Positions 1-15,556 of a DNA stretch of 64,000 nt are shown piece by piece; within the stretch, counting starts at the first letter, position 1, and every line of letters begins with the position of its first letter. Below the pieces are notes generated by a model. That model was not told where the DNA came from, ran no database searches, and saw nothing but the letters and a program-made list of their open reading frames with translations. Source of the DNA: Comamonas flocculans (GTDB lineage: Bacteria > Pseudomonadota > Gammaproteobacteria > Burkholderiales > Burkholderiaceae_C); assembly GCF_007954405.1 (NCBI RefSeq), contig NZ_CP042344.1, positions 2,604,001 to 2,668,000 of the forward strand, in the 5' to 3' direction. The translations under genes and the position numbers were made by a program.

Positions 1-23
1 TCTGTCTCTTGTAACTGACCGCC

Positions 24-1640
24 ATGTGGAACCAACTGCGCATCACCCAACGGTTTCTTCTGGTCCTGTGCGGCTGCTGGCTCTCGGGCGCGGCCATCAT
101 TGCCGTGAGCTACTGGGGGCTGGCGTCGGCGCGCGACAGCCTCAAGGCGGTGCATGAACATGCGATGGCCCTGGCGCTGGAAGCCGCCGATGCAGCGGAC
201 CTGACCGTGCAAAACCGCCTGCAGGTGGTGCTGGCCTTCCAGCATGCGGGCGACAGCCCGCTCGCCTCGCTGCACGACCATCCGCTGATCCAGCATCTGG
301 AGGCGGTCAAGAGCAACCGCGCCGCGGTGGCCCGCAAGGTGCAGCTCCTGGCCGACGTCGCCACCACCGCGCGCGAGAAAGCACTGGCGCAGAAGCTGCT
401 GGCCGCCCGTCTCGCCTGGGTTGCGCAGCTGGACAAGGCCACCGGGGCGCTGGCACAGGAGGACTTTTCCCCCGCGGTGATGCAAGCCTTTCTTGCCGCC
501 GGCCGCGGCGAAGGCGAGGCCCTGATGGCGGCGGCGCAAGAATTCCGCGCCGAGCAGATCGCTCAGGCCGACGCGGCCTACCAGGGCGCCGAGAGCCGCT
601 ATCGCAGCGGGCTGCTGGTGTTTGCGCTGGCGGCGCTGCTGCTTGGCCTGCCGGCCTCGCTGCTGGGCCTGTTGCTGCTGTCGCGCCTGCTCAGCGGCTT
701 TCGCACGGCCAACGCCGCAGCGGCGGCGATCGCGGCAAACGATCTGACCCAACCGATCACCGCGCAGGGACGCGACGAGATTGCGGCCATGCTTGGCCAG
801 ATGGAGGCCATGCGCAGCAAACTCAACCGCATGATCGGCCAGGTGCGCGACGGCGCCCAGGCGATTGCCGGTGCCTCCGTACAAGTGGCCGCTGGCACCA
901 CCGACCTGTCGGCGCGCACCGAACAGCAGGCCAGCGCCCTGGAGCAGACCGCCTCCTCCACCGAGGAGCTCTCCGGCACCGTGCAGCACAACGCCGACAG
1001 CGCCGCCCAGGCCAACCAGCTCGCCGCCCACGCCACCAGCGTCGCCCAGCGCGGGGGGCGGGTGGTCGGGCAGGTGGTTCAGACCATGGAGGAGATCAAC
1101 ACCTCCTCGCGCAAGATCGTGGACATCATCGGCGTGATCGACTCCATCGCCTTCCAGACCAACATCCTCGCGCTCAACGCCGCCGTCGAGGCGGCGCGCG
1201 CGGGCGAGCAGGGCCGCGGTTTCGCCGTCGTGGCCAGCGAAGTGCGCTCGCTCGCGCAGCGCAGCGCCGAAGCCGCGCGCGAGATCAAGGACCTGATCAC
1301 CGCCTCGGTTGCCAAGGTGGACATGGGCAGCGAGCAGGTGGCGCAGGCCGGCGCCACCATGCAGGAAATCGTGGAAGGCATCCAGCGCGTGGCCGACATC
1401 GTCGACGAGATCGCCGTGGCCAGCCGTGAGCAATCGCAAGGCCTGGCGCAGATCAACCAGGCGGTTGCCCATCTGGACGGCGTGACGCAGCAGAACGCCG
1501 CGCTGGTGGAGGAGACCTCCGCGGCTTCGGGTGCGCTGCAGGACCAGGCGCGCCAGCTGGCCAGCATGGCAGCGCAGTTTCAGCTGCAGCCGCAGGGCCC
1601 GGCCCCTGCCGAGGGCGTGCCGCGCCTCACCCAGGGCTGA
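24..1640 (+). CDS. Methyl-accepting chemotaxis protein
   Basis: A 538-residue membrane chemoreceptor that would pass a periplasmic signal to the CheA/CheW kinase complex. Hydrophobic segments at about residues 11-33 and 195-220 bracket a roughly 160-residue helical periplasmic domain. A HAMP region follows, around 220-275. The cytoplasmic signalling domain contains the highly conserved hairpin tip (VDIIGVIDSIAFQTNILALN, then RAGEQGRGFAVVASEVRSLA). Glutamine/glutamate-rich methylation helices flank the tip. There is no C-terminal NWETF-type pentapeptide, so CheR/CheB tethering is not expected. No che genes lie nearby, so this is an orphan receptor. The ligand cannot be told from sequence. The family call is secure. 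Confidence 0.95.
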   Translation: MWNQLRITQRFLLVLCGCWLSGAAIIAVSYWGLASARDSLKAVHEHAMALALEAADAADLTVQNRLQVVLAFQHAGDSPLASLHDHPLIQHLEAVKSNRAAVARKVQLLADVATTAREKALAQKLLAARLAWVAQLDKATGALAQEDFSPAVMQAFLAAGRGEGEALMAAAQEFRAEQIAQADAAYQGAESRYRSGLLVFALAALLLGLPASLLGLLLLSRLLSGFRTANAAAAAIAANDLTQPITAQGRDEIAAMLGQMEAMRSKLNRMIGQVRDGAQAIAGASVQVAAGTTDLSARTEQQASALEQTASSTEELSGTVQHNADSAAQANQLAAHATSVAQRGGRVVGQVVQTMEEINTSSRKIVDIIGVIDSIAFQTNILALNAAVEAARAGEQGRGFAVVASEVRSLAQRSAEAAREIKDLITASVAKVDMGSEQVAQAGATMQEIVEGIQRVADIVDEIAVASREQSQGLAQINQAVAHLDGVTQQNAALVEETSAASGALQDQARQLASMAAQFQLQPQGPAPAEGVPRLTQG

Positions 1641-1680
1641 TTCCCATCGTGCCGCGCGGCCTGCGCGCGGCGCCTGTCGG

Positions 1681-1715
1681 AAAACAAAAAAGCACCTGCG
1701 TTTTCACACAAGTGC
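1681..1715 (-). terminator. Probable original terminator of tRNA-Val, now stranded outside the island
   Basis: Read on the minus strand, GCACTTGTG pairs with CGCAGGTGC (two G-U pairs) around the loop TGAAAA and is followed by TTTTTTG. It lies just outside the left attachment repeat. Before the island inserted it would have been about 10 bases after the 3' end of tRNA-Val. That position and orientation are what a tRNA terminator would have. Confidence 0.6.
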
Positions 1716-1725
1716 CTGATTGCAT

Positions 1726-1742
1726 TGGTAGGCGCGATTGGA
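1726..1742. repeat. attL, left attachment repeat
   Basis: TGGTAGGCGCGATTGGA is identical to 10528-10544 and diverges immediately on both sides. It corresponds to the last 17 bases of tRNA-Val including CCA. No tRNA body adjoins it here, so this is the duplicated end created by integration. Confidence 0.88.
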
Positions 1743-1800
1743 GCCAAAGAATACTCGGAAAACCGCTTGTTTGCTTGGTGCTGGCTTCTAATTTTGAAAA

Positions 1801-1827
1801 TTGTTCCCCCGTTTGTTCCCCCGTTTT
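1801..1827. repeat. Left integrase arm-type site candidate
   Basis: Two tandem TGTTCCCCCGTTT units. Nearly the same doublet, with one extra C, occurs in the same orientation at 10393-10418. The copies lie about 60 bp inside attL and about 110 bp inside attR. Paired short repeats just inside both ends are the expected form of integrase arm-binding sites. Confidence 0.55.
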
Positions 1828-1945
1828 GCGTTGGATACCCCCCATTTTTGCCTGCAACCCCGCAACGGACGCGGCGCCTTGCGTTGGTGTGTCAGGCCAT
1901 CGTCAACCAGTTCCGCCGGGTGACCACTAGCGCGCGATCGGGGCC

Positions 1946-1981
1946 GCGATTACCCGCAGGGGAAGGGGCCAGGAAGTACCT
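1946..1981. repeat. Diverged 36-bp repeat, copy 1
   Basis: Begins GCGATTACCC and ends GGCCAGGAAGTACCT. A similar segment at 2973-3009 begins GCGAATTACCC and ends GGCCAGGAAGAACCT, with most positions conserved between them. Both are intergenic within the island. The function is unknown. Confidence 0.5.
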
Positions 1982-2074
1982 TTGAACTGTCGGCAAGGCA
2001 GCAGCAGGGCGTCAGCAAAAGGCGGGGAATTTTGCGTTTTTGCGTGCCCGTGCCTTCGGCTATCGTTCATTTTT

Positions 2075-2192
2075 AGCGGGGACAGCGGGGACAAATCCGA
2101 AAATCCCGACCAAACCATTGTCAACATTGAAGAAATCTGTCCCCGGTACAGGCGGGGACAAACCTTTTTTTGCCGGGGACAGCGGGGACAAA
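2075..2192. repeat. Left iteron cluster (GCGGGGACAAA)
   Basis: GGGGACA occurs five times on the plus strand: a doublet at 2078-2092, a single at 2154-2160 and a doublet at 2175-2190. One inverted TGTCCCC at 2138-2144 forms a palindrome with the single copy. The fuller unit is GCGGGGACAAA. The same unit recurs in opposite orientation at 8811-8916. The arrangement suggests binding sites for the island primase-helicase or another island protein. Confidence 0.65.
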
Positions 2193-2232
2193 TTGGCCTG
2201 AAATGTCACTACGGATGGAAAAGGGCGACATT

Positions 2233-2868
2233 TCATCGATTTGTAGCCGTCAGAGCGGCCTCCGCGTCCGCGTCGCAGTCGCCATCGCCCGCCAGTGTTT
2301 CAAGGGCGCCGCCGTCCGGGTCGCACGCGATTCTGTACAACTCGCCGGGCGTCGCCAGGTGCGCGCCAGGCACGGAAAACAATGCCGCTTCATCAAGCGA
2401 CAGCGGGGCCGTGCTGGCAGCCAGATCGTGCAGTGGCGCGGTGGCAAGCAAGAAATGCCCGCACAAGTGCCACCACAGGGCGGCGGGGAAGGTCAGGGGC
2501 ATCGCACTGGCCAGCGGCAAGCGCGCCAGCAGCTCGCGCAGCGGCCGCAGTTCATGCTGGCGCTGCATGGGATCGGCGCTCAGGTGGCCCGCCATGAAGC
2601 GCCCGGCAAGTTCCAGGGCGGCGCGCAATGCGGCGGGATCGATGCCCGCCCCCGGGGCGTCCTTTCGGGTGGCGATCGGCCTGGGGGCGCCTTGGGCGGG
2701 CGCTGCCTTCTGATCAGGGCGATTGCCTTTCACGCGCGATGGTTCAAGGTGGCGATTGCGCCAGCGCGTGGCCCGCTCGATCGTGTCCGTGGGCATGCCC
2801 CGCTTGGCAAGGCGGGAAACCATCGATGCCGAAATGCCCAGCAGCTCGGCAAGCTCCTTTTTCTGCAT
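2233..2868 (-). CDS. Island HTH protein, possible terminase small subunit-like
   Basis: A 211-residue protein. The start at 2868 was chosen because AGAGGA lies six bases upstream of the ATG; a longer reading frame exists but lacks this signal. The N terminus (KKELAELLGISASMVSRLAK, then RGMPTDTIERATRWR) is a winged-HTH DNA-recognition module. This layout is seen in Nu1-like phage terminase small subunits and in some phage regulators. A basic linker and a helical C-terminal half follow, ending in an acidic tail. It lies downstream of the primase, separated by 176 bp. In phage-inducible islands this is a common place for a small terminase that redirects packaging, but the match here is structural in style only. 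A regulator is an equally plausible reading. Confidence 0.6.
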   Translation of the reverse strand: MQKKELAELLGISASMVSRLAKRGMPTDTIERATRWRNRHLEPSRVKGNRPDQKAAPAQGAPRPIATRKDAPGAGIDPAALRAALELAGRFMAGHLSADPMQRQHELRPLRELLARLPLASAMPLTFPAALWWHLCGHFLLATAPLHDLAASTAPLSLDEAALFSVPGAHLATPGELYRIACDPDGGALETLAGDGDCDADAEAALTATNR

Positions 2869-2972
2869 GTTTTTCCTCTGGTGAACCATCGAACGAAACG
2901 GAACCAATCGGGGGCGTTTGCGCCCTTTTCTGAACCCTGCCCTGCATGGACTGACTACCCCCGGTGCGGGGT

Positions 2973-3009
2973 GCGAATTACCCTCAAGGGCAAAGGCCAG
3001 GAAGAACCT
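2973..3009. repeat. Diverged 36-bp repeat, copy 2
   Basis: Partner of 1946-1981. It lies in the gap between the primase stop and the HTH gene start, so the copies flank the HTH gene on either side. That placement would suit a regulatory or packaging site, but nothing in the sequence proves it. Confidence 0.5.
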
Positions 3010-3083
3010 AAAAACTCGCCCCGCCTTGGAAAATCTGGCGCGGTTCGATTTCTCGCCCCGCCCCCTTCGGGCGGCCCGGCGCG

Positions 3084-5960
3084 CTACACGTCAAGGGCGA
3101 AGATGGCGGGCGGAATGTGGTAGCAGCGGCTCGGCCCAAGGCCGGGCAGGCGGGCCTTGACGGTGAACCGCCCGGCCTCGGTCTTCAGGCATTCGTGGGC
3201 CACCAGCACGCGGCAAACGGCCTCGGGGTCAAAGCCTTGGCACACTTCTGCGCGGAACACTTCGGGCAAGATGAAATATTCCACGCTCACGGCCTCGCCT
3301 TGGGCTGGCGCCATGTGGTCGCCAAACTCGCCAAGGTGTTGCGCGTTGGTCTTGATCGGCTCGCCATCCTCGTTCAGCATGCGCCTGAACCCGGCGCGTT
3401 GCAGCGTCTTGGCGTTGTGGTCATCGGCGGCGCGGTGCCACCAGGTAAAGCGCCCTTCGCCGCTCACTTCCATGAAGCGGCGCACCTGCCGCAGCATCGC
3501 CCGCACCTCGCCGTTGCCAGCGCCACCACGCGCATGCAGCCAGGCATCAAAGCATTGCCCGGCCGCCCATGTGGCATCCATGTAGTCCCAGCCAGTCAGC
3601 CCGGCCTCGGTGGCCAGCTCGCCCGCCATGGCCACCAGTGCAAAGCGGCTGGCCACCCGTTGCACTTGACCGGATGCGCCCTCGGGCATCCATTGCGCCG
3701 CGATGGCTTGCACGCCCTCACGCAGGCGCCGGGGCAGTTCTGCCCAATGGGCGGCGGCCCATTCGATGAAGGCCACGCCGGGCGCGCCATGGCATGCGGC
3801 GGCCTCACGGGTCAGGTGCGTGGCGAATGCGGCAGCGCTGGCTTGCTGGTGTATGTCCTCGAAAGCGCCCATGCCTGCCCCTGCATCGGCGGGCACGTCA
3901 ACCATGCGGATTTCCTGCCCGGTGCGGGCGCGGCGCTGGCCTTCAGCCATGTGGTCGGCAAGGCCCAATTCCCCGGCGCTCAGGAACAGCAAGCGCCAGC
4001 TCAGGCGGGCACGCGGCGCACCGCCCCGGGTAGCGCGGGCCTTGCTTTGTTCATTGGCCAGCATGTAAGCGCATTCGCCCGCTACCTTGCCATCAACCTG
4101 TGCCAATTCATCCAAGATCAGCAGCGCGTCGCAGTGCTGCGCCGCAATCGCTTCCAGGGCGTTATCTGTGGCGCGCCAGCGCTGCATGTAGCTGGGGCCG
4201 CCGTTTACGCTCGCAGCCACGCGCAAGGCCGTGGTCTTGCCCGATGAAGAATCGCCCCGCAGGTGAAAGCCCCCGCTTTCCATGCCCGCAGGGCGCAGCA
4301 GCGGCCCGGCAAAGGCGCAAGACGCGGCAAACATCAAGCGGCTATTGCCACGGCACAGAACGCCGATGCGATCGCGCCAGGCGGCTGCATCCTTGCGCGT
4401 GCGCCAGGTGTTTTCCATGGCGCTGTCAGACTGAAAAACAATGCGCCCGCCGTGCGCGCCGATGGTCAGGTGCGGCAACACGAAGGCGGCGCCCCCGGCC
4501 TCGGTCGGGTGCCAGCCGATGCGGTCGGTACAGGTGGCAAATTCGCTCGGACGGCGGGTTTGCAGGTACTCGGTCAGCTTGTTGCGCGCGCTCGGGCCGG
4601 TGGCGATGCGCAGGCCCATGCCCAACAGCATCGCCCGGTATTCGGCGCCGTCGCCCGACAACATGCGGGCGGGCATGGCCCATTGCTTGGGGCGCTGCAA
4701 CGGGTCGGCAAATTCCAGTAGATAGCCCCAGCCTTGCCCATCCTGATCGCGCGTCAACGCCACCACGTCCAAGCGGCTGCACAGCCACAGCGGGCGCAGG
4801 GGTTCGCCCTCTTTGCCACGCCCGTGAAAGTACACCCCGCCATCATCAACGGTAAAGGGGTCGTACACCTCGGGCGCATCGTCGCCAGCGCCAGCAGGTA
4901 CGGGGCTGCGGGGCGCTGCGCCCGCTTGCCCATTGGCAGCGATGGCGGCTGCGATCGTGGCGCGCACAGCCGCAAGCCCTTGCGTGCGGTGTTGATCGTT
5001 GAAGTCCCAATTGATCGGCGCGCCATCATCGGGCGCGCCCTCGGGCAGCGCCACCACGCCATGCACGGCATGCGCGGCGGTTTCGGCTTTTGTGCGGCCG
5101 GGGTTGCTGCCGGTGCGCGCTTCGGTGGCCCGATCATCATCGGCAGCCAGCACCAACAGCGCGGCCGGATGCAGGCGCCGCAGGGCTTTGGCAACATGGA
5201 TCAAATTGCCAGCATCGAAGGCGCAAGCGGTCGGAAAGCCGGTGGCCTCGTACACAGTGGCAGCGCTGGCGTAGCCCTCAGCAATGGCGATCACGCCAGC
5301 CACTGCGGAAGCATCGCCCAGCAGGTGCCACAGCCCCGACTTGCGCCCGCCCCGGAAAAAGGTTTTCTCGGGGCCGCGCTCGGGCTTGGTTGCCGCGATA
5401 CGTTGCACATTCCACAGCACGCCAGCGGCATCGCGCAGGGGCACGCACAACACGCCGGGCGGCGCATGGCGCACGCCATGGGCGCCGATGCCCTTACGCA
5501 CCAGATAGCGCGCCTGTGCGGGGTCGGTCACGTCTTGGCAATTGCCCTCCCAAAACGCTAGCGCCTCGGCGGCGGCGGCGGCCTGTTCCGCTTGGGTGCG
5601 TTCGCGCTCGGCCCGGGCAGCGGCCTTGCGCTCGGCATCGCGGCGCGCCAGCTCGGCAGCGCTGGGGGGCTTGGCGGCGCGGCCTGCCTTGGGCAACTCA
5701 AAACCGTTTTCTTTGGCCATGTGCAGCAGGGTGGCGATGGTCACGCCCCCGCCCGGCCGCACGCTGCGCCAGGTGCTGGCGCAATCGCTGGCGTTGTAGG
5801 TGGCTGCTGTGCGGCTCCAATCTTCGAACAGCGCCCGGCCGGTTTCGTCGGGATATTCGCTCTTGATCGCCATCGCCACGCGCGCCCATTCGTCGCGTGG
5901 CAGCGCTGCCGGTATGTGCGCCAAGGCGGCGCGGATCAACTCGGGGGTGATTGCATTCAT
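3084..5960 (-). CDS. Primase-helicase (PriCT_2, TOPRIM, DUF927)
   Basis: A 958-residue replication protein of the island. Residues 1-90 form a PriCT_2 domain. A charged Ala/Arg/Glu linker covers about 95-135. Residues 222-275 are TOPRIM-like, with a conserved acid in AIAEGYASAAT and the LVLAADDDRA strand. The DUF927 helicase domain begins around 365, with Walker A GDSSSGKT at 569-576 and Walker B LLILDE at 613-618. Together these resemble the functions of the P4 alpha protein: priming, unwinding and probably origin recognition. The start codon overlaps the stop of the upstream 83-residue gene (ATGA), so translation is probably coupled. The closest partner in the sequence is the iteron set at both ends of the island. 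The family assignment is confident; the replication role is inferred. Confidence 0.9.
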   Translation of the reverse strand: MNAITPELIRAALAHIPAALPRDEWARVAMAIKSEYPDETGRALFEDWSRTAATYNASDCASTWRSVRPGGGVTIATLLHMAKENGFELPKAGRAAKPPSAAELARRDAERKAAARAERERTQAEQAAAAAEALAFWEGNCQDVTDPAQARYLVRKGIGAHGVRHAPPGVLCVPLRDAAGVLWNVQRIAATKPERGPEKTFFRGGRKSGLWHLLGDASAVAGVIAIAEGYASAATVYEATGFPTACAFDAGNLIHVAKALRRLHPAALLVLAADDDRATEARTGSNPGRTKAETAAHAVHGVVALPEGAPDDGAPINWDFNDQHRTQGLAAVRATIAAAIAANGQAGAAPRSPVPAGAGDDAPEVYDPFTVDDGGVYFHGRGKEGEPLRPLWLCSRLDVVALTRDQDGQGWGYLLEFADPLQRPKQWAMPARMLSGDGAEYRAMLLGMGLRIATGPSARNKLTEYLQTRRPSEFATCTDRIGWHPTEAGGAAFVLPHLTIGAHGGRIVFQSDSAMENTWRTRKDAAAWRDRIGVLCRGNSRLMFAASCAFAGPLLRPAGMESGGFHLRGDSSSGKTTALRVAASVNGGPSYMQRWRATDNALEAIAAQHCDALLILDELAQVDGKVAGECAYMLANEQSKARATRGGAPRARLSWRLLFLSAGELGLADHMAEGQRRARTGQEIRMVDVPADAGAGMGAFEDIHQQASAAAFATHLTREAAACHGAPGVAFIEWAAAHWAELPRRLREGVQAIAAQWMPEGASGQVQRVASRFALVAMAGELATEAGLTGWDYMDATWAAGQCFDAWLHARGGAGNGEVRAMLRQVRRFMEVSGEGRFTWWHRAADDHNAKTLQRAGFRRMLNEDGEPIKTNAQHLGEFGDHMAPAQGEAVSVEYFILPEVFRAEVCQGFDPEAVCRVLVAHECLKTEAGRFTVKARLPGLGPSRCYHIPPAIFALDV

Positions 5961-6208
5961 CGGCTGTCGATCATCGATGCGGCCGGGCGCTGTTCAAGGG
6001 CGCGGGCGATGCGTTCCAGGGCGGCAGCCACGGATTCGAGGCCATCGCGCAGCCAGACGGCCGATGCGCTGGCTTGGGTTTGGACTTGGGCCACGGCATG
6101 CGCACCGCTGGCGATGTTTTCGCCATGCAGATTGATGGCACGGATCAACACGGCGAACTGTTCCGGGGCCATCGCCAGCGCGGTTTCGGGTGAAGTGGTC
6201 TTGATCAT
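5957..6208 (-). CDS. Small island protein of unknown function (83 aa)
   Basis: An 83-residue, mostly helical protein with no family I recognise. It begins with an ATG that overlaps the alpA stop (ATGA) and ends with a stop that overlaps the primase start (ATGA). It is therefore sandwiched in a tightly coupled alpA-orf-primase operon. This double overlap is the main evidence that it is real. The C-terminal half (LRDGLESVAAALERIARALE) could form a short coiled coil. A longer upstream start exists but would overlap alpA heavily. Confidence 0.7.
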   Translation of the reverse strand: MIKTTSPETALAMAPEQFAVLIRAINLHGENIASGAHAVAQVQTQASASAVWLRDGLESVAAALERIARALEQRPAASMIDSR

Positions 6209-6474
6209 TGCTGCGCCTCCGCGATGCGGGCTTGAACCCAGCGAAGAACGGCCACTTCCGACCAGACGGCAAGGCGCGCATGGATGCGGAAATTTTTGGG
6301 GAAGCGCCCGGCGGCCATCATTTGGTAAATGGTGGATTTCCGGCAACCGGTCAGTTTTTCAACTTGCGGCAAACGAATCAACCGATCGCGGGGCGGCATT
6401 TCGGCGCTGGGGTGGCTTGCATGCGTTGCGGGCGCCGGGTCGTGGTCGATTTGTGGTGTGCTGGGGTGGATCAT
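6205..6474 (-). CDS. alpA: AlpA-family transcriptional regulator
   Basis: An 89-residue MerR-like HTH protein of the AlpA/excisionase superfamily. The core reads IRLPQVEKLTGCRKSTIYQM followed by FPKNFRIHARLAVWSEVAVLRW, the typical AlpA pattern. About 30 extra N-terminal residues precede the domain. AlpA proteins in CP4-57, P4-like satellites and phage-inducible islands activate integrase or early operons. Here the gene leads the coupled alpA-orf-primase operon. AAGGACG lies just upstream of its ATG and overlaps an inverted repeat, so autoregulation is likely. The family call is secure; the targets are unknown. Confidence 0.9.
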   Translation of the reverse strand: MIHPSTPQIDHDPAPATHASHPSAEMPPRDRLIRLPQVEKLTGCRKSTIYQMMAAGRFPKNFRIHARLAVWSEVAVLRWVQARIAEAQQ

Positions 6475-6476
6475 CG

Positions 6477-6504
6477 TTCGTCCTTAGTGGTCGGTACGGA
6501 CGAA
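6477..6504. promoter_or_regulatory. Inverted-repeat operator candidate before alpA
   Basis: TTCGTCC and GGACGAA form a perfect 7-bp inverted repeat with a 14-bp spacer, extending to eight of nine pairs. It begins three bases upstream of the alpA start and includes its ribosome binding site. A repressor bound here would block expression of alpA and the primase. Confidence 0.5.
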
Positions 6505-6552
6505 TGATTCGCGGAGCGCGCCGGTTAAAACAGGTCGATAAATGCAGGCGAA

Positions 6553-7203
6553 TTACTGGCCTTGACAAGCGCGCAGGCTTGCGATAGCGGCGGGGGATGC
6601 TTGCTCTATGGCGAACTCGTACCGAATGCACCCAAATTCAGCGCGGGCGCGGTCTGAACGCCACAGCCAACCATCGCCGTTTATCAGCACATGAACGGCG
6701 TTGTCTATGACCTGAAAAGTGGTCGCATCCTTGGTGACGGCAATCATGGTTGAAGCGTCAACCGGGTCTTCTGATTCGAAGCGCTGCAACGACATTCCTG
6801 CCACTGCCTTTCTGCCGGCTCGTATGCGCTTGTTCAAGGCTGATTCATCGGAAGCCCCGGGCCAGCCCCTCGCGTGCCACCAATCCAAGGTCTCGCGGCG
6901 GGCCGCCGGCCTGTCTCGGGGTTCGTCGCCTTTGCGCTGGTGCCATCGATGGCATAGCGCCAAAGCCACGTCCAAATGAGCTGCTTCGCCTGCTGGCCTG
7001 CCCCTTTTGGGGGGCAAGAACTCAACGTTGATCAGCTCCCCGTGGAAATAATGCCCGCCCCCGGCATCGTCTGACAAAACACCCTCTATGCGGTGGTGGT
7101 CGCCTCCAAAATCAAGGGTATAGAGGGTTCCCCGGTACAACCGCCCGCCGAGTCGCAAAGTGGTATCTATGGCCCGCTGTATGGGTGTTTTGCGCAGTGT
7201 CAT
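6553..7203 (-). CDS. Hypothetical island protein (216 aa)
   Basis: A 216-residue protein with no recognised domain. The N-terminal third (TTLRLGGRLYRGTLYTLDFG and on to the HYFHGELINVEF segment) looks beta-rich. The middle is basic and rich in Trp/Arg/His (ETLDWWHARGWPGASDESAL). The C-terminal third is mixed. No signal peptide or membrane segment is visible. It follows radC by 40 bp on the same strand and probably belongs to the same transcript. It is cargo or a regulatory component of the element. The reading frame is real by its length and operon position; its function is unknown. Confidence 0.7.
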   Translation of the reverse strand: MTLRKTPIQRAIDTTLRLGGRLYRGTLYTLDFGGDHHRIEGVLSDDAGGGHYFHGELINVEFLPPKRGRPAGEAAHLDVALALCHRWHQRKGDEPRDRPAARRETLDWWHARGWPGASDESALNKRIRAGRKAVAGMSLQRFESEDPVDASTMIAVTKDATTFQVIDNAVHVLINGDGWLWRSDRARAEFGCIRYEFAIEQASPAAIASLRACQGQ

Positions 7204-7243
7204 AGTTGCATTGCGAAGGTTCTGGCGCGAATGGCCAGCGGCA

Positions 7244-7813
7244 TTAAATCAGCCCCCGTTCCGCCATGCTCAGCGCCCGATCGCCGCCCACGATCACATG
7301 ATCCAGCACGCGAACATTGATCCATGCCAGGGCGTGTTTGAGGGTTTGCGTCAGGGTTTCATCGGCTCGGCTGGGCTCCGTGTTGCCGCTGGGGTGGTTG
7401 TGCGCCAGCACTACGGAAGCGGCCCGGTGGCGCATCGCAGCCTCTGCGATTTCACGGGGATGCACGACGCTTTGTGTCAGGGTGCCGATGGCATGGCATT
7501 CGAAGGCAATGCCCCGGTGCTGGCTATTCAGGTACAGCACCGCGAAGCGCTCGATGGGCTCGCCCGCCAGTTGCAAGCGCAGATACTCACGCACCGCCTG
7601 GGGGTTGTCCAACACGGCGCCGGGGCTGCCAAGGTAGCTGCCGAGAATGGACAGGGCGCGCTCGATCACCGCTCGATCACGGGCGCGCATGCGGGGGCGC
7701 AGTGCGGCGGAATCGCTGGGCAGGCCATACACGGGCAGACACTCCCCGGCCTTGTGGGCGCGCAGTTCGGCAGGGCGCTTTTTTGGTGGCGTTGCAATGT
7801 AGGTGCTGACCAT
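7244..7813 (-). CDS. radC: RadC-like JAB/MPN domain protein
   Basis: A 189-residue protein. The C-terminal 120 residues carry the RadC/JAB metal site: a conserved glutamate in the GTL strand region, then LAHNHPSGNTEPSRADETLT with the HxH...D ligands. The classic N-terminal helix-hairpin-helix of chromosomal RadC is absent. This is usual for mobile-element RadC proteins. The start at 7813 follows the stop of the upstream 80-residue gene by two bases, with GGGAGGGCG as a possible ribosome site. A longer frame exists but overlaps that gene. Biochemical function is unproven in the family; a metalloprotease or nuclease-linked role has been proposed. Confidence 0.85.
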   Translation of the reverse strand: MVSTYIATPPKKRPAELRAHKAGECLPVYGLPSDSAALRPRMRARDRAVIERALSILGSYLGSPGAVLDNPQAVREYLRLQLAGEPIERFAVLYLNSQHRGIAFECHAIGTLTQSVVHPREIAEAAMRHRAASVVLAHNHPSGNTEPSRADETLTQTLKHALAWINVRVLDHVIVGGDRALSMAERGLI

Positions 7814-7815
7814 GC

Positions 7816-8058
7816 TCACGCCCTCCCATCCATCGCCGCGCAGGCAGCCGCGCAGGCCAGCAGCTTGCCCGCCAAGGCGCGCGCTTGTGCAGGCGTCAGG
7901 CGCTGCGAGACGTAGCAATCCGGCTCCCAGCGTGACAGGCGCACCCCGTGGGCATCGGCGCTCACGCTCAGGCGCAGGCCGCTGCCGCTCAGGTATTCGC
8001 ATTGCAGCGCGGTGCCGGTTTCGGCATCGGTTGATCGGGTAAAGGTGGCTGCATTCAT
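7816..8058 (-). CDS. Small island protein of unknown function (80 aa)
   Basis: An 80-residue protein with an N-terminal beta-rich half (TALQCEYLSGSGLRLSVSAD) and an alanine-rich helical C terminus containing two cysteines. Its ATG overlaps the stop of the preceding gene (ATGA) and radC starts two bases after its stop. It is thus the middle member of a compact three-gene unit. No family is recognised. Similar small frames upstream of radC are common in integrated elements of this group, but no role can be inferred. Confidence 0.65.
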   Translation of the reverse strand: MNAATFTRSTDAETGTALQCEYLSGSGLRLSVSADAHGVRLSRWEPDCYVSQRLTPAQARALAGKLLACAAACAAMDGRA

Positions 8059-8297
8059 GCTGCGCCTCCTTGCACCAGGGCGGCATTCAAGCGCCGCAGC
8101 GCAGCCAGCGCCAGGCCGGTTTTACGCATTGCGGCGGGGACGTTGCCGCATGGCGACTGGCGCAGGTAGTACGCGGCCATGCTCAGGGCGTTGCAGGCAT
8201 CGGCATATGCCTGCATGGGCTCGGCTTGCCTGTTCGCTTGCGCGGGCACGGGCACAGCGCCGCAGGCGCTGGGTTGCGGGGGAAAGGTCACGATCAT
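8055..8297 (-). CDS. Small island protein of unknown function (80 aa), first gene of operon
   Basis: The start at 8297 was chosen because AAGGAG lies eight bases upstream; an in-frame ATG at 8330 lacks a ribosome site. The product has 80 residues. It has a proline-rich N terminus and a C-terminal helix pair (YADACNALSMAAYYLRQ, then MRKTGLALAALRRLNAALVQ). It is the promoter-proximal gene of the unit that continues through radC. It resembles no family I know. The ATGA overlap with the next gene supports its reality. Confidence 0.65.
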   Translation of the reverse strand: MIVTFPPQPSACGAVPVPAQANRQAEPMQAYADACNALSMAAYYLRQSPCGNVPAAMRKTGLALAALRRLNAALVQGGAA

Positions 8298-9006
8298 GGT
8301 TCCGGCTCCTTGTTGAGACTTGGAAGCCACCGGCCCGCGTTTTCACGCGCAGACAGGTGGGCGGGCGTTGAAAACACGCAACAAGACGTGCGGGCGCCCT
8401 TGCGGGTGGCCCCGCCCGCCCGAAACCATGCAAAGCAATTCGGGCACGACGAAGCCCCTCTATCGGGGGGGCGCTACCGCTTGTTGTCAGGTGTTTTCAC
8501 GCACCGGCCCCGGCTGGGGCTGGCGTGATTTTCGCCCACGGGCTGGGGCTGCGTCAATCGTGCGGGCCGCTATGGCGCCCGTCCATGGCGGCGGAAGCCT
8601 CACGGCGCCATGGACAACGGCGCCAGCCTGTGATAGCTGCGCGGCGCCTGGGCTGGGGGCTCCAGGGGGAACCCCTCTCGCGCTCACGTCCGCGAAGGCG
8701 CGCCAGCGTGCAGCACATGGCCGCAAGCGGGCAAGCGGCGGGCGGGTGGCCTGAAAAGAGAATCAGGGTTTGTATGTATGAAAAATTTCACTATTCAATA
8801 TATTTCTCTTTTGTCCCCGCTTTGTACCCCGCACTGTCCCCGCTTTGTCCCCGGCAGCCATCGGCCGCAAACCCGCATGGATGCTGGATTCTTTGTTTTG
8901 TCCCCGCTGTCCCCGCCGTTTTCTTGTTTTCCGGGGGGAAGGCTTTGCACCTGGGGCACAAAATAGCCACCCGGCCGGGGCGGCTGCGGGTGGCTGGTGC
9001 CGGGTT
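8298..9006. other. Non-coding region between integrase and the island operon
   Basis: About 700 bases with no convincing gene. The part nearest the operon (8300-8750) is GC-rich and has no recognised motif beyond the probable operon promoter. The part nearest the integrase (8757-8916) contains an AT-rich stretch followed by the right iteron cluster. Confidence 0.6.
8757..8916. other. Candidate replication origin: AT-rich tract plus right iterons
   Basis: The stretch 8757-8812 is strikingly AT-rich (TATGAAAAATTTCACTATTC and neighbours) in an otherwise GC-rich element. Next to it TGTCCCC occurs at 8813-8819, 8835-8841, 8847-8853, 8899-8905 and 8909-8915, plus the variant TGTACCCC at 8824. The full unit GCGGGGACAAA on the minus strand matches the left cluster. 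Iterons beside an easily melted tract are the usual layout of an iteron origin. Confidence 0.5.
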
Positions 9007-10248
9007 TCAGGCGCTGCGCTTGGGTAGCTCGATCACGTCTGCACCGGCTTGCAATTTGTCGAGATAGTCCGCCCACACTTCGAGCATGGCGGCGCGTTCA
9101 TCGATGAAGGTGGCCCGGTCATAGGCGCCCCCGTGGGTAATCTGGCCTTTGTGCGCCATCTGCGCCTCGATCACGTCGGCCGGGTACTTCAGCACCTGCC
9201 GCAAGATGGTGCGGCCGCTGGCCCGGTAGCCATGCCAGCAGTGGCGCCCCTTGTAGTCCATGGCATGCAGGGCGGCATTTACCGCAGCTTCGGACATCGG
9301 CCGCGCGTGGTCGCGCATGCCGGGGAACACGTACACGCCGTGCCCGGTCAGGGGCGCCAGCTCTCGCAGCAGCTCCACGGCTTGGCGGGGCAGGGGAACG
9401 ACGTGCGGCTGTCCGTTGATTTTTTCGTGCTTCTTGCGCTTCAGGTCTTCGCTGGGGATCGTCCATCGCCCGGCTTCCAGGTCAAGATCAGCCCAGCGCA
9501 TGGCGCGCAGGTTGCCGGGGCGCTGAAACAGGATCGGCGCCAGGCGCAGCGCCGCACGCACCACGGGGCCGCCCTTGTAGGCGCTGCTTGCGCGCAGCAG
9601 CTCGCCCAGCTCGGCAGGGTCGGTGATCGCGGGCATGTTCTTCGTGACGTGCGGGCGCAGCCCCTTGCGAATGTCTTGCGTCACGTCGCGCTCGGCATGG
9701 CCGGATGCGATGGCGTATTGCCAAACCCCGTGCGCCGTCAACACCACGCGATGCGCCACGTCCAAGGCGCCGCGTTCCTCTACCTTGCGCGCCACGGCCA
9801 GCACTTGGGGGCCGGTGATTTCGCGGATCGGCAGCGGCCCAAGGTAGGGCAGCAGGTCTTTTTCCAGATTGCGCAGCTCTCGGACATAGTGCCCATTGCT
9901 CCATGTGTCGCGGTGCAGATCAATCCATGCGGTGGCCATTGCCCGGAAACTGCCATCGTCGCTTGCCGCTTCTTGTGCGCGCGCCACCTGCCGGGCCTTC
10001 ACCGGATCGGCGCCGCTGGCCTTGTCTTGCTTGGCGTGGTCGCGCGCTTTGCGCGCTGCGGGAAGCTTGATCGCCGGGTAATTGCCAATGGCAAGGCGCC
10101 CCTCCTTGCCGTCTTTGCGGTACTTCCAGAACCAGCGCTTGGAACCGTTAGGGGTCACTTCCAGATAGAGCCCGCCCGCGTCATACAGCCGGGCGCGGCT
10201 CTTGTCGGGTGGGCAGGTGGCATTGCGGCATTCGGCATCGGTCAGCAT
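9007..10248 (-). CDS. int: P4-type tyrosine integrase
   Basis: A 413-residue site-specific recombinase that would insert and excise the island at tRNA-Val. The N terminus has the DUF4102 arm-binding domain (LYDAGGLYLEVTPNGSKRWF). The central SAM-like core-binding domain follows. The catalytic residues are visible: R243 in FQRPGNLRAMRW, H339 and R342 in WHGYRASGRT, H366 in QMAHK, and nucleophile Y376 in GGAYDRATF. The C terminus ends with the family pattern MLEVWADYLD. The ATG at 10248 has GAGG seven bases upstream; an ATG at 10260 is an alternative. The gene reads away from the adjacent tRNA-Val. It appears intact. Confidence 0.95.
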   Translation of the reverse strand: MLTDAECRNATCPPDKSRARLYDAGGLYLEVTPNGSKRWFWKYRKDGKEGRLAIGNYPAIKLPAARKARDHAKQDKASGADPVKARQVARAQEAASDDGSFRAMATAWIDLHRDTWSNGHYVRELRNLEKDLLPYLGPLPIREITGPQVLAVARKVEERGALDVAHRVVLTAHGVWQYAIASGHAERDVTQDIRKGLRPHVTKNMPAITDPAELGELLRASSAYKGGPVVRAALRLAPILFQRPGNLRAMRWADLDLEAGRWTIPSEDLKRKKHEKINGQPHVVPLPRQAVELLRELAPLTGHGVYVFPGMRDHARPMSEAAVNAALHAMDYKGRHCWHGYRASGRTILRQVLKYPADVIEAQMAHKGQITHGGAYDRATFIDERAAMLEVWADYLDKLQAGADVIELPKRSA

Positions 10249-10392
10249 GGCGGGCCTCATTGCAAGGTAGGCGGGTTGAACCCGGCGCGCGTCAGGCGGC
10301 GCGAAACGCCGAAACCCCGCAAACCCGCACCGCCAGCGGGTTTGCGCCGATGCGGGGGAACAGGTGGGCAAATTTTACCCCCAGCCCTCAAA

Positions 10393-10418
10393 TGTTCCCC
10401 CGTTTGTTCCCCCCGTTT
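10393..10418. repeat. Right integrase arm-type site candidate
   Basis: TGTTCCCCCGTTT followed by TGTTCCCCCCGTTT. This matches 1801-1827 except for one extra C. It lies between the integrase start and attR, where arm sites that control excision are normally found. Confidence 0.55.
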
Positions 10419-10482
10419 GGGCTGGCTGCATGCGGACAACGCCGGAAGCATGCGGGCGCTAAAGCGTTGTTTTCTATAGGGG

Positions 10483-10520
10483 AAAATAAAAAATCCGGAA
10501 GCTTGCGGAAGCTCCCGGAT
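10483..10520 (-). terminator. Island-borne terminator for tRNA-Val
   Basis: On the minus strand, ATCCGGGAGCTT pairs with AAGCTTCCGGAT (12 pairs, one G-U) around the loop CCGC, followed by TTTTTTATTTT. It lies eight bases after the tRNA-Val 3' end and inside the element. It replaces the chromosomal terminator displaced to 1681-1715. Confidence 0.8.
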
Positions 10521-10527
10521 CATCAAA

Positions 10528-10544
10528 TGGTAGGCGCGATTGGA
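10528..10544. repeat. attR, right attachment repeat within tRNA-Val
   Basis: Identical to attL. It forms the 3' acceptor strand, part of the T arm and CCA of the intact tRNA-Val gene, so integration leaves the tRNA functional. Confidence 0.88.
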
Positions 10545-10604
10545 CTCGAACCAACGACCCCCACCATGTCAAGGTGGTGCTCTAACCAGCTGAGCTACGC
10601 GCCT
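10528..10604 (-). tRNA. tRNA-Val(GAC)
   Basis: A 77-base tRNA with encoded CCA. The acceptor AGGCGCG pairs with CGCGCCU. The anticodon loop reads CUUGACAUG, with anticodon GAC. The T arm contains GGUUCGAGUCC. The 3' end doubles as the integration site of the island. Confidence 0.97.
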
Positions 10605-10655
10605 GTTCTACCGAAGGGCGCGATTCTAGCAAGAAAACCGGGCTGCCCTGGCCAC

Positions 10656-12896
10656 TCAGCGCCTTCTTGCGGAACGCACGCCGGTCACCGCGGCGAGGAT
10701 GCCGAGCACCTTGTTCAGACGCTCGGCGCTGGTGATTTCCACGGTGAAGGTCATCCAGGCCGTGTCCTTGACACTTTGCGTCTGCACGCCGATGACATTG
10801 ATCTTCTCGCGCGTGAAGACGTCGGAGATGTCGCGCAGCAGTCCCTGGCGGTCTGCCGCTTCGATGGCCAGGTCCACGGGGTAGACCTCGGCCGCGGGGC
10901 CGGGCTCGCCGCCCCAGGTGACTTCGATCACGCGCTCTTCATGGCGCGCGGCGAGTTCGCGGAAATTGCTGCAATCCGAACGGTGCACGCTCACCCCCTT
11001 GCCGCGCGTGACGAAGCCGCGAATGCTGTCCGGTGGCGCCGGTTTGCAGCATTTGGCCAGCTGCGTCATGAGCGATCCCAGGCCTACCACCAGCACCGCG
11101 CTCCTGGCGGCGTCGTCGCTGGCGCGTTGCCTTTTGCGCGCCGGTGCGTCCGCCTCGCCCGCGGGGGCCACGGGCTGCGGGTGCAGCAGCTGCTCGATGG
11201 AGCGCAGCGACAGCTCGTCCTTGCCGACCACCTCGAACAGGGCGCTGGCGCTCTTGAAGCCCAGTTGCGCGGCCAGGTCGTCGTGCTTGATGGCGGTCTT
11301 GCCCTCGCGCTGCAACAGCTTTTCGACCAGTTCACGCCCGCGCGCTATCGTGCCCTCGAGCTGCTCGGCATTGAACCAGGCACGCACCTTGGCCTTGGCC
11401 CGCGCACTCGTGAGGTAGCCCAGCTCGGGGTTGAGCCAGTCGCGCGAGGGGCGCCCTTCCTTGACGGTGATGATTTCCACCGTCTGCCCGTTCTGCAGCG
11501 CAGTGTTCAATGGCACCATGGCGCCATCGACCTTGGCGCCGCGGCAGCGGTGGCCCACGCTGGTGTGTACCGAATAGGCGAAGTCGACCGGCGTGGCGCC
11601 CTGGGGCAGTTCGATCACCGCGGCGTTGGGCGTGAGCACATAGATGCGGTCTTCGAACAGGCTGCTGTGGCTGGCGCTGCCCGCGAGGTCACGCTCCCAG
11701 GCCAGCAGCTGGCGCAGCACCGCGATCTTGGCGTCGTAGTCGCTGGCGGCGCTCACGCCGCCATAGCCCTTGGTGCCCGCTTCCTTGTAGGCCCAGTGCG
11801 CGGCCACGCCGCTTTCGGCGTGGTCGTGCATGGCCTGCGAGCGGATCTGGATCTCGATCGCGCGCCCGTCCTTGTCGCGCACCACGGTGTGCAGCGACTG
11901 GTAGCCATTGGGCTTGGGCCTGGCGATGTAGTCGTCGAATTCCGCCTGGATGGACTGGTACTGGCTGTGCACCCAGCTGAGCGCGGCATAGCAGTCCTTG
12001 ACGCTGGGCACGATCACGCGCAGCGCGTGCAGGTCGTACACCTGATCGAAAGGCAGCGACTTGCCGCGCATCTTCTTGACGATGCTGTAGATGTGCTTGG
12101 GTCGCCCGGACACCTTGGCCTGCACGCCCTGGCGCTGCAACTGCTCTTGCAGCTGGGCGCGCAGCTGCTCGACGAAGGCTTCGCGTTCCGTGCGCTTTTC
12201 ATCGAGCAGCCGGGCCACGTCGCGGTAGGTTTCAGGCTCCAGCTCGCGAAACGCCAAGTCTTCGAGCTCCCACTTGAGCTGCCAGATGCCCAGGCGGTTG
12301 GCCAGCGGTGCGAAGACCTGCAGGGTTTCGCGCGCCATCGCGGGGGAGGCGGGCTGGTGCGTGCTGGCGTGAAAGCGCATGGTCTGCAGGCGTGAAGCCA
12401 GGCGCAGCAGCACCACGCGCAGGTCGCGCGAAAACGCCAGCAGCATCTTGCGCACGTTCTCGGTCTGTACCTGGGTGGCATCGATCTGCCTGTGCGTGGC
12501 GTGCGCCTCCCGGGCCTGGCGCTGCACGCGCATGAGCTTGGTGGTTTCCACCGCCAGCTGCGCGAAATTGGGGCTGAAGGCCTTGGCGATGACCTCTTCG
12601 GGCCGCGTCAGGTGCAGGCAGGTGTGCACGAGATAGGTGGCGGCCTGCATGGTCTCCGAGCTGCCAAGCTCGCGCAGGATGCGCGCCACGGCGTCGGCGT
12701 GCTCGAGCGTGTTCTCACCCGAATCCAGGGTTTCGCCGCGCAGCAGGGGCTCGGCAAAGGCGCGTGCACGCACCAGTGCTTCATGCGGATGCAGGTCCAG
12801 ATCGGCCAGCCCTTCAGAGGTGGCTGCGATCAGGTGGGGCAGTGGCTCGGCGCCACTGCCCGCTCTGGCCTGGATGCTGGCGGCGGCGGCTTTCAT
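10656..12896 (-). CDS. relA: GTP pyrophosphokinase RelA
   Basis: A 746-residue (p)ppGpp synthetase of the stringent response. The N-terminal HD region is degenerate (VHTCLHLTRPEEV replaces the LHDVIEDT-type metal site), so hydrolase activity is not expected. The synthetase domain is intact: GRPKHIYSIVKKM, YDLHALRVIV, and the EFDDYIARPKPNGYQSLHTV segment with the EXDD motif typical of monofunctional RelA. A TGS domain (DRIYVLTPNAAVIELPQGAT), a zinc-finger/CC-type region (LAKCCKPAPPDSIRGF) and a C-terminal ACT domain follow. The start at 12896 overlaps the stop of the upstream hydrolase (ATGA), indicating coupling. A much longer reading frame upstream is an artefact. Confidence 0.95.
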   Translation of the reverse strand: MKAAAASIQARAGSGAEPLPHLIAATSEGLADLDLHPHEALVRARAFAEPLLRGETLDSGENTLEHADAVARILRELGSSETMQAATYLVHTCLHLTRPEEVIAKAFSPNFAQLAVETTKLMRVQRQAREAHATHRQIDATQVQTENVRKMLLAFSRDLRVVLLRLASRLQTMRFHASTHQPASPAMARETLQVFAPLANRLGIWQLKWELEDLAFRELEPETYRDVARLLDEKRTEREAFVEQLRAQLQEQLQRQGVQAKVSGRPKHIYSIVKKMRGKSLPFDQVYDLHALRVIVPSVKDCYAALSWVHSQYQSIQAEFDDYIARPKPNGYQSLHTVVRDKDGRAIEIQIRSQAMHDHAESGVAAHWAYKEAGTKGYGGVSAASDYDAKIAVLRQLLAWERDLAGSASHSSLFEDRIYVLTPNAAVIELPQGATPVDFAYSVHTSVGHRCRGAKVDGAMVPLNTALQNGQTVEIITVKEGRPSRDWLNPELGYLTSARAKAKVRAWFNAEQLEGTIARGRELVEKLLQREGKTAIKHDDLAAQLGFKSASALFEVVGKDELSLRSIEQLLHPQPVAPAGEADAPARKRQRASDDAARSAVLVVGLGSLMTQLAKCCKPAPPDSIRGFVTRGKGVSVHRSDCSNFRELAARHEERVIEVTWGGEPGPAAEVYPVDLAIEAADRQGLLRDISDVFTREKINVIGVQTQSVKDTAWMTFTVEITSAERLNKVLGILAAVTGVRSARRR

Positions 12897-13837
12897 GCTT
12901 GCGACCCGGCCCCGATGCCCAGAATAAACTCGGCCACCACGCGCACCTGCTCGGGCGCCACCAGAGTGGGCGCGTGACCAACACCGGCGAATTCCACCAG
13001 CCGCGCATGCGGGCCGCGCTCGCCCATCGCATGGGCCACCGCCGGCGACAGCAGGTCGGAGTCCTTGCCGCGCAACAGCAGCACCTGGGCGGTGATCTGC
13101 TCGTAGAGCTGCCACATCAATGCCTCGCCCTGCTGTGCGAGTTCGGGCGTGAGGGCCTTGAAGGGCTGGGCGATGGCGGGGTCGTAGTGCAGCCGCAAGC
13201 CGCCTTCGGGCGCAGGGCGCAGCATGGGGCGGCTCAGCGCCAGCCATTGCTCGGGGGTGTGCGGACCAAAGCTGCTGGAAATTGCCCAGAGCGCGTCGGC
13301 CGCCTGCTGCTCGCTCGCAAAACGCACCGGCGCGCCCAGATACTGGCCTATGCGCTGCAGCGCGTCCCAGGGCAGGGCGGGGCCGACGTCATTGAGTACC
13401 AGCCGGCGCACCGGCGCCGGCAGCGGCAGGTCCTGCTGGCCGGTCAGCACCATGCCGATCAGCCCGCCCATGCTCGTGCCCACCCAGTCCAGCCGGGCGA
13501 TCGGCCCTTCGCCATGCAGCTGTGCGAGCAGCGCGAGCATGTCGGCGGCGTAGAGCGGGATCTGGTAGTCCTCGGGGTTGGCGAGCCAGTCGCTTTCCCC
13601 GCGGCCCACCACGTCGGGGCAGACCACGCGTGCGCTCCCCGACAGCGCCTTCGCCAGGGTGTCGAAGTCGCGCCCCTGGCGCGAGAGCCCGTGCACGCAG
13701 ACGACGACGTGCGGGTGCTGCGGCTGCCCGCTCGCGTTCCATTGCCAGTACGCCATGCGGTGCCCGAGCTCGGCGTTGCGGGCGGGTGCGCCGGGGCAGA
13801 AAACGTGGCGCAGCGTGGGCTCGGAGGAGGTGTTCAT
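12893..13837 (-). CDS. Alpha/beta-fold hydrolase
   Basis: A 314-residue alpha/beta hydrolase. The oxyanion segment VVVCVHGLSRQGRDF, the nucleophile elbow WVGTSMGGLIGM (Ser), an acid near LLLRGKDSDLLSP and a late histidine in FAGVGHAPTLVA give a complete triad. The start at 13837 was chosen because it matches the natural beginning of the fold; the frame runs on upstream only as antisense of the next gene. It shares a 60-bp divergent promoter region with the hydroxybutyrate dehydrogenase gene. It is coupled to relA by an ATGA overlap. The substrate is unknown. An esterase acting on hydroxyalkanoate or acyl esters would suit the neighbour, but that is only a guess. Confidence 0.85.
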   Translation of the reverse strand: MNTSSEPTLRHVFCPGAPARNAELGHRMAYWQWNASGQPQHPHVVVCVHGLSRQGRDFDTLAKALSGSARVVCPDVVGRGESDWLANPEDYQIPLYAADMLALLAQLHGEGPIARLDWVGTSMGGLIGMVLTGQQDLPLPAPVRRLVLNDVGPALPWDALQRIGQYLGAPVRFASEQQAADALWAISSSFGPHTPEQWLALSRPMLRPAPEGGLRLHYDPAIAQPFKALTPELAQQGEALMWQLYEQITAQVLLLRGKDSDLLSPAVAHAMGERGPHARLVEFAGVGHAPTLVAPEQVRVVAEFILGIGAGSQA

Positions 13838-13897
13838 GCGGCCTTGCAACGGCTGATAATGCCTGCGTTGCATCCTAGTTGTTTCGGAGATTTTGTC

Positions 13898-14680: not shown

Positions 14681-14818
14681 GCGCAGGCAGGGCGGCGGCC
14701 AGCGGAAGGCGAAGACGCAACACCTGTAACAGTGGGTCAAACTTGAGGCGGCGCACCGGATTTTCCCGGCGTTAGGGGTCAGAATCCGGCGTTGTTACAA
14801 ATGGCGGGAGGCCCACGC

Positions 14819-15550: not shown

Positions 15551-15556
15551 GGGCGC

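Follow-up and report, generated by a model that had tools for sequence, protein, structure and literature searches.

What kind of mobile element has entered the tRNA-Val gene of Comamonas flocculans, and by what means could it travel? The window analysed here is a stretch of 64,000 nucleotides (NCBI RefSeq assembly GCF_007954405.1, contig NZ_CP042344.1, positions 2,604,001 to 2,668,000 of the forward strand), and the element occupies its positions 1726-10544. An earlier note on this DNA had read it as a P4-like or phage-inducible satellite. This reading is supported by our analysis, which adds packaging features absent from the note (two cos-like sites and a protein with the head of a small terminase subunit, TerS), as well as iteron arrays and a RadC/JAB gene; a helper phage is presumably required. 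That the element is a mobile satellite of the cos type, intact and integrated, is well supported, and in our best reading it is P4-like in replication and, in packaging, similar to the phage-inducible chromosomal islands (PICIs). At the level of the sequence, the analysis establishes the insertion and its genes, its cos-like sites and iterons, and a TerS-type head whose tail has been exchanged. These findings suggest an element that travels inside the particles of other viruses, whose packaging machinery it diverts.

The element is bounded by an exact direct repeat of 17 bp (1726-1742 and 10528-10544), which is maximal, identity extending no further at either side. The duplicated tRNA end seen in the earlier note is this repeat: the right copy, attR, is the 3' end of tRNA-Val(GAC) (10528-10604, minus strand; called by ARAGORN, Rfam tRNA score of 67.6 bits), and the left copy is attL-like. 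The corresponding attB sequence is present once in the closest congener (genome G005), where window positions 6-1742 (90%) and 10528-16000 (93%) align to a single uninterrupted stretch and overlap by exactly 17 bp. Because both flanks join in this genome and have only these 17 bp in common, the insertion amounts to 8,802 bp. The same tRNA-Val site is empty in G005, and the repeats behave as a pair of attachment (att) sites. The tRNA-Val gene and its relA-side flank were found in all nine genomes of the genus that were searched (eight besides the window's own), and none of the other eight has DNA of the element's interior beside this flank (stretches of 19.9 kb in seven genomes and 7.1 kb in one). 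The polymorphism of the flanking repeat, which had been proposed as a check, is thus observed. In addition, GTTCCCCC occurs six times in the 64 kb, always inside the element, and four of the six copies form tandem pairs near attL (1803-1823, plus strand) and near attR (10394-10414, plus strand), which are candidate arm sites for the integrase. Domain matches bear out two genes named in the earlier note, a P4-type tyrosine integrase of 417 aa (9007-10260, minus strand, with a probable ATG start at 10260; Arm-DNA-bind_3, Phage_int_M and Phage_integrase) and an AlpA regulator or excisionase (6205-6474, minus strand; PF05930, 1e-12).

The way in which this DNA could enter a particle is indicated by two direct, lambda-type cos-like sites, both on the minus strand. 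The first, cos1 (2942-3028), has a cosQ-like block at 3009-2997 and a cosN-like block at 2983-2968, and lies 115 bp upstream of the TerS-head domain; in the second, cos2 (1914-2000), these blocks are at 1981-1969 and 1955-1940. The intergenic gap between the primase and TerS-head genes (215 bp in the window) is conserved, with short coding ends, in four satellites (75% mean column identity), and its core is GGGTAATTCGNNCCCC. A search of IMG/VR returned at least 120 stretches with this core. Among the matches listed, 26 of 120 have less than 1.6 kb downstream, which leaves 94 for a test with a model of the large terminase subunit (TerL) built from three proteins (those of phages Lodos and OQ658367 and that of L092, the one tested as GpA-type). 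TerL was found on the same strand within 2 kb in 80 of these 94 listed matches, against 675 of 4,700 random positions (14%) in the same loci. Moreover, six Pseudomonas phage records carry sites scoring 42-74, with the core exact in two and with one mismatch in four. These sites stand 50-110 bp ahead of the first packaging gene, which is annotated as a small terminase in four records and is unnamed in LPPA56 and Meadow. A position weight matrix (PWM) of 109 distinct viral sites (-45 to +70) ranks cos1 first in the window (26.2, at 2983) and cos2 second (13.3, at 1955); the third-best score is -10.9, and nothing in 197 kb of control sequence exceeds -3.

The same position would also suit a regulatory signal placed before packaging genes, an alternative that we consider very unlikely. 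In its favour, five IMG/VR contigs (L130, L159, L194, L202 and L239) have the motif about 50-80 bp before a primase-like gene of about 800 aa, with TerL some 4-6 kb further on in four of them (none within the L159 stretch). Two family loci, L283 and L290, share this primase-first layout (primase match at about +280, TerL at 4.4-4.5 kb). Against it, the motif lies between the lysis and terminase genes in annotated phages and is preceded by a cosQ-like block. A GGGTCCT block, which we take to be what is called cosQ in lambda, lies about 30 nt upstream in that phage, while its counterpart in the satellites reads GGGTCCT, AGGTTCT or AGGTACT, at a distance of about 26-27 nt. Also, the best position of the matrix in lambda is one base from the cos junction, but it scores only -27.5, so lambda cos is a distant relative at most. 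The term cosQ is in use for such sites (PMC6092414, PMC6739421). One observation calls for caution over the window's own site: once the seed is set aside, the flanks of cos1 reach only -1.5, as do 586 of 127,770 window positions, whereas by the same measure the two sites of Comamonas badia have scores (26.1 and 23.8) that no window position attains. Since its flanks score poorly, cos1 rests mainly on its core, its cosQ-like block, its place and its conservation.

Comparable sites are spread over related loci. At least one site over threshold was found in 28 of 46 scanned satellite loci (those of L062 and L080 are probably false), and at least two in nine (one of the three in L073 is marginal, at -2.9). 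The 46 loci include five without a primase match of this family (L091, L093, L094, L120 and L284). Outside the count stand L097, L282, L283, L290, L294 and L299 (duplicate or phage loci), L100, and L281, which has no primase match at 1e-60 and yet a site scoring 41.2. The exact core occurs 37 times in 26 of 399 family genomes, and the reversed pattern does not occur. Twenty-one of these sites were assigned to satellites (two of them, in G238:C18 and G297:C48, on thin evidence), ten to loci with TerL at most 5 kb downstream and six to neither. One satellite, L064, has four cos-like sites (11787-12303), the core being of the CCCC form in two of them and of the CCGC form in the others.

The gene just downstream of cos1 (2233-2868, minus strand) encodes 211 aa, with a TerS-type DNA-binding head (residues ~1-50) and a helical tail that is not of TerS type. 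The earlier note had called it a small helix-turn-helix (HTH) protein; the head is indeed of HTH type, but this description was incomplete, as the protein matches PHROG 57 (terminase small subunit) at 5.4e-7. The head resembles those of phage small terminases and of RppC. The tail has no similarity to TerS tails (hhalign probability of 0.8%), and a fold search with the tail modelled alone (predicted local distance difference test score, pLDDT, of 87.8) gave no convincing match, RppC not being among the matches listed. The head is 74-77% identical in three proteins that have retained an ordinary TerS tail, namely P0025, P0037 and, from a satellite, L066; therefore, tails were swapped. The ratio of non-synonymous to synonymous substitution rates (dN/dS) is 0.10 for the head and 0.47 for the tail. 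This class of tail was found in four loci (the window, L057, L061 and L063).

Could this protein simply regulate transcription by means of its TerS-like HTH, packaging being ensured by the cos-like sites alone? Many HTH families score weakly against it, and cloned cos sites can suffice for transfer (PMC6092414). However, the best structural matches of the head are TerS domains, and its gene follows a cos-like site, the same arrangement as cos-terS in phages. The head was found in 17 distinct loci (L097 repeats L079), 16 of them testable for position, L092 being excluded because of a contig edge. An over-threshold site lies 74-322 bp upstream in 13 of the 16: the window, L057, L061, L063, L066, L076 (322 bp), L079, L091, L093, L095, L096, L120 and L281. 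In the other three, the site is just below threshold (L094, -4.5), poor (L121, -14.8) or absent (L119, where only 150 upstream bases exist). We therefore regard the regulator as improbable.

A more serious alternative, still unlikely in our opinion, is that the protein is a complete small terminase whose new tail docks the large terminase of another type of helper, as pac-type Staphylococcus aureus pathogenicity islands (SaPIs) bring their own TerS. Two satellites that have this primase, L066 and L096, do encode full-length PHROG 57 or TerS-tail proteins beside such a site, as does L094, an integrase locus lacking the primase, where the site is the one just below threshold. Bringing a TerS is therefore a strategy within this lineage. 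The window protein differs in its tail, which lacks both TerS similarity and a convincing fold match, and no TerL match was found in the fetched stretches of the four loci with its tail class (L061 and L063 are short contigs).

The arrangement instead recalls RppC, in which residues 1-64 make up a TerS-like head and residues 65-139 a different tail. RppC joins the helper TerS in a heterocomplex, halts the packaging of the phage and steers packaging towards the island (PMC6739421). A profile search of PDB sequences with the window family did not match RppC at E<=10, although 6hlk is in the library. As no sequence link to RppC was found, the element is Rpp-like in plan and not an Rpp member by sequence. 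By analogy, an Rpp-like action is the likeliest job of the hybrid protein, at about even chances, the full TerS for another terminase being its main rival. Evolution of Rpp from TerS was suggested by its discoverers (PMC6739421). Here, an independent origin of an Rpp-like protein is possible, and we hold it slightly less probable than the action itself: a small terminase would have kept its head, lost its TerL-contacting tail by whole-tail exchange and gained a faster-evolving one to seize the helper TerS. Such an origin can be tested by comparing sister elements, because the slot beside cos is occupied by a full TerS in some of them and by a hybrid in others.

The primase-helicase of 958 aa (3084-5960, minus strand) had been described as PriCT_2/TOPRIM/DUF927; the first and last domains stand (4e-19 and 3e-83), whereas TOPRIM is not reported by Pfam at E<=1, residues 121-949 being covered by PHROG DNA-primase families. 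The heptamer GGGGACA occurs 11 times in the 64 kb, all 11 copies within two arrays of the element, six on the left (2078-2190) and five on the right (8812-8914). The internal spacing of the left array is identical in L078 and, in mirrored form, nearly so in L073 and L075; in other satellites, the paired arrays consist of different 7-mers (GAGGACA, GGGAACA, GCGGACA). A two-array test was positive in 18 of 44 primase loci (16 of 30 when restricted to loci with both sides present, the window counted as complete), in none of 132 Markov-randomised loci and in none of 10 real controls. A looser test adds L069, L077 and L084, but chance matches of seven copies then appear in two of four window controls. 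In P4, ori and crr are two iteron arrays, and the 6+5 arrangement suggests a P4-like bipartite origin.

From these features we infer excision, the mode of replication, packaging, a helper and the Rpp-like action, as follows. The integrase, probably with AlpA, would excise the element at the 17-bp att core, and the primase-helicase would replicate the circle from the two iteron arrays, as in P4. The two direct cos-like sites would then allow the replicated DNA to be cut and packaged by a helper phage whose large terminase is of the GpA type. The TerS-head protein, acting like the Rpp of Escherichia coli PICIs, may bind the satellite cos region through its head and/or pair with the helper TerS, its tail taking the place of the TerL-contacting one. 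The helper terminase would be redirected to satellite DNA, and helper packaging would suffer.

Then, we considered whether the element is a former satellite that is now immobile. No resident helper was found, and close primases exist, besides the window's own, in only two of the nine genus genomes: C. badia DSM 17552 (G001, 86%), whose element adjoins tRNA-Pro and not tRNA-Val, and G002 (65-78%, in two pieces on a 9.4-kb contig). Any primase match at E<=0.001 was found in six of the nine. On the other hand, the scanned genes have open reading frames, the att repeats match exactly, and comparison with C. badia gives dN/dS values of 0.18 (primase), 0.21 (integrase) and 0.35 (TerS-head gene). Immobility is thus rather improbable, a little more so than the regulator discussed above. 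The gene set is not a decayed part of a prophage either, since relatives with a broadly similar gene order occupy other tRNA and tmRNA genes. Primase matches at E<=1e-60 occur in 46 of 399 family genomes, its own included. In the fetched loci, mapped by mechanical ORF (open reading frame) calls, an integrase, small genes, often RadC, AlpA and a primase are mostly co-directional, and the integrase adjoins tRNA-Ser, -Pro, -Arg, -Phe, -Thr or tmRNA. The order varies, with a cos-like site between integrase and AlpA in L076, L082 and L086.

All genes of the element itself are on the minus strand. From the tRNA inward, they read integrase, right iterons, 91-aa ORF, 80-aa ORF, RadC, 216-aa ORF, AlpA, 83-aa ORF, primase-helicase, cos1, TerS-head protein, left iterons, cos2 and attL. 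Nine of the listed ORFs were scanned against families (Pfam, PHROG, NCBIfam, PADLOC), and none of the nine is a structural, lysis or large-terminase gene, in agreement with the earlier statement that structural phage genes are missing. The RadC/JAB protein (7244-7813; PF04002, 1.6e-41) is likely 189 aa long, like its C. badia homologue ORF, in a frame that opens at 8086. The 216-aa ORF (6553-7203) has no match in the four libraries at E<=1. The 83-aa ORF (5957-6208) overlaps the primase start and belongs to a 129-aa frame opening at 6346, without a Pfam match at E<=1 (best weak match over the libraries scanned, 0.035). The 80-aa ORF (7816-8058; best weak family match, 0.0036) has homologues in L057, L062 and L061, and the 91-aa ORF (8055-8330) in eight fetched loci. 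A tRNA-Leu(CAG) call by ARAGORN antisense in the latter gene (8150-8241, plus strand) has no counterpart in the C. badia element and is probably spurious; an Rfam match to sRNA-Xcc1 (8351-8421, minus strand) is below threshold (43 bits for a cut-off of 53, E 4.4e-5).

Several records around these relatives deserve mention. A capsid or capsid-protease gene (PHROG 4523/133) lies downstream of the primase in the sister satellites L063 (668-1714), L096 (6755-8527) and L077 (12384-14804), loci without a TerL match; perhaps these genes serve a capsid redirection like that of Ccm. L064 has a TMP_3 tape-measure protein of 1,098 aa between AlpA and primase (5279-8575), and L091 a TMP_2 tape-measure fragment after its TerS-head and capsid genes (3192-4469). 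The contig L067 (G211:C47, 7,880 bp) has its genes permuted (primase-cos-int-RadC-AlpA), seems to begin and end within alpA and lacks a chromosomal flank; it is compatible with an excised circle or a tandem copy, although its ends do not overlap exactly. A 6,989-bp Salmonella plasmid (OX345456.1) carries a primase that aligns with 82% of the query at 36% identity, i.e. the same replicase type outside a chromosome. Elsewhere in the window's own genome, L303 (G000 3160000-3179900) carries phage genes (PHROG 371 head protein, PHROG 220 minor head protein, PHROG 2 terminase) that are probably Mu-like.

Satellites are best known from enterobacteria, vibrios and staphylococci. The window element and its sisters are a group spread over a bacterial family, and in the open literature, to which the search was confined, we found no satellite paper on Comamonas or Burkholderiales. 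As to the earlier suggestion of an undescribed lineage, the four ORFs of 216, 129 (or 83), 80 and 91 aa have no family match at E<=0.001. The lineage is nevertheless related to known ones, the int-AlpA-primase-DUF927 core being shared with phiAH14b. The cos model allows satellites to be paired by sequence with candidate helper phages, and the tail-swapped TerS proteins are a natural series for studying how a subunit of a packaging enzyme becomes a packaging pirate.

Among known systems, capsid-forming PICIs (cfPICIs) have their own capsid and large-terminase genes, neither of which is among the nine scanned ORFs. SaPIbov5, a cos SaPI with the capsid homologue Ccm (PMC8569155), shares the cos type; no capsid gene is among the scanned ORFs of the window element, whereas some sister satellites have a capsid-like one. 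The phage-inducible chromosomal minimalist islands (PICMIs; PMC10803314) are also small, with int, alpA and primase and without structural genes, but they use the fis site and DUF3987/DUF5906 primase domains instead of tRNA-Val and DUF927, and their authors identified neither a terS homologue nor a cos or pac site. The phage records closest to the primase are vB_Pae_U10, whose 10 kb hold a major capsid gene besides int, a primase pair and two excisionase/regulator genes, and phiAH14b (KU708005). The latter, a Pseudomonas satellite, is induced by mitomycin C along with AH14a and packaged in AH14a capsids (PMC4936722). It has int, AlpA, TOPRIM primase and DUF927-type helicase in the same order, but it measures 16.8 kb, its primase is split in two genes (35% identical over 79%), its best cos-model score is -11.9, and its authors found no terminase-like gene (PMC4936722).

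Like P4, the window element has a P4-type integrase at a tRNA 3' end, an AlpA-like regulator, a primase-helicase and two iteron arrays; it differs by its DUF927 replicase and its lambda-type cos, and no match to psu, sid or delta was found in the nine scanned ORFs. Its sequence also has the features of Gram-negative cos PICIs, namely a specific att site with an integrase, AlpA with a replication module and cos-like sites, in the absence of structural, lysis or large-terminase genes among the scanned ORFs. The closest parallel in packaging is EcCICFT073, which has two cos sites and retains cosN and cosQ but not cosB (PMC6739421). Islands of this type (PMC6739421, PMC6092414) resemble the window element by conserved cosQ and cosN, two cos sites, AlpA, their own replication gene and an HTH protein, Rpp, with a TerS-like head and a different tail. 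The plan of Rpp, a TerS-like head with a non-TerS tail, is thus encoded here in a satellite beside a cos-like site, TerS binding and cos switching being drawn by analogy. Compared with these islands, the window protein is longer and has another tail, replication would rely on a DUF927 replicase with P4-like iterons, the cos core is that of another phage group, and the sister satellites L066 and L096 have a full TerS in the same slot.

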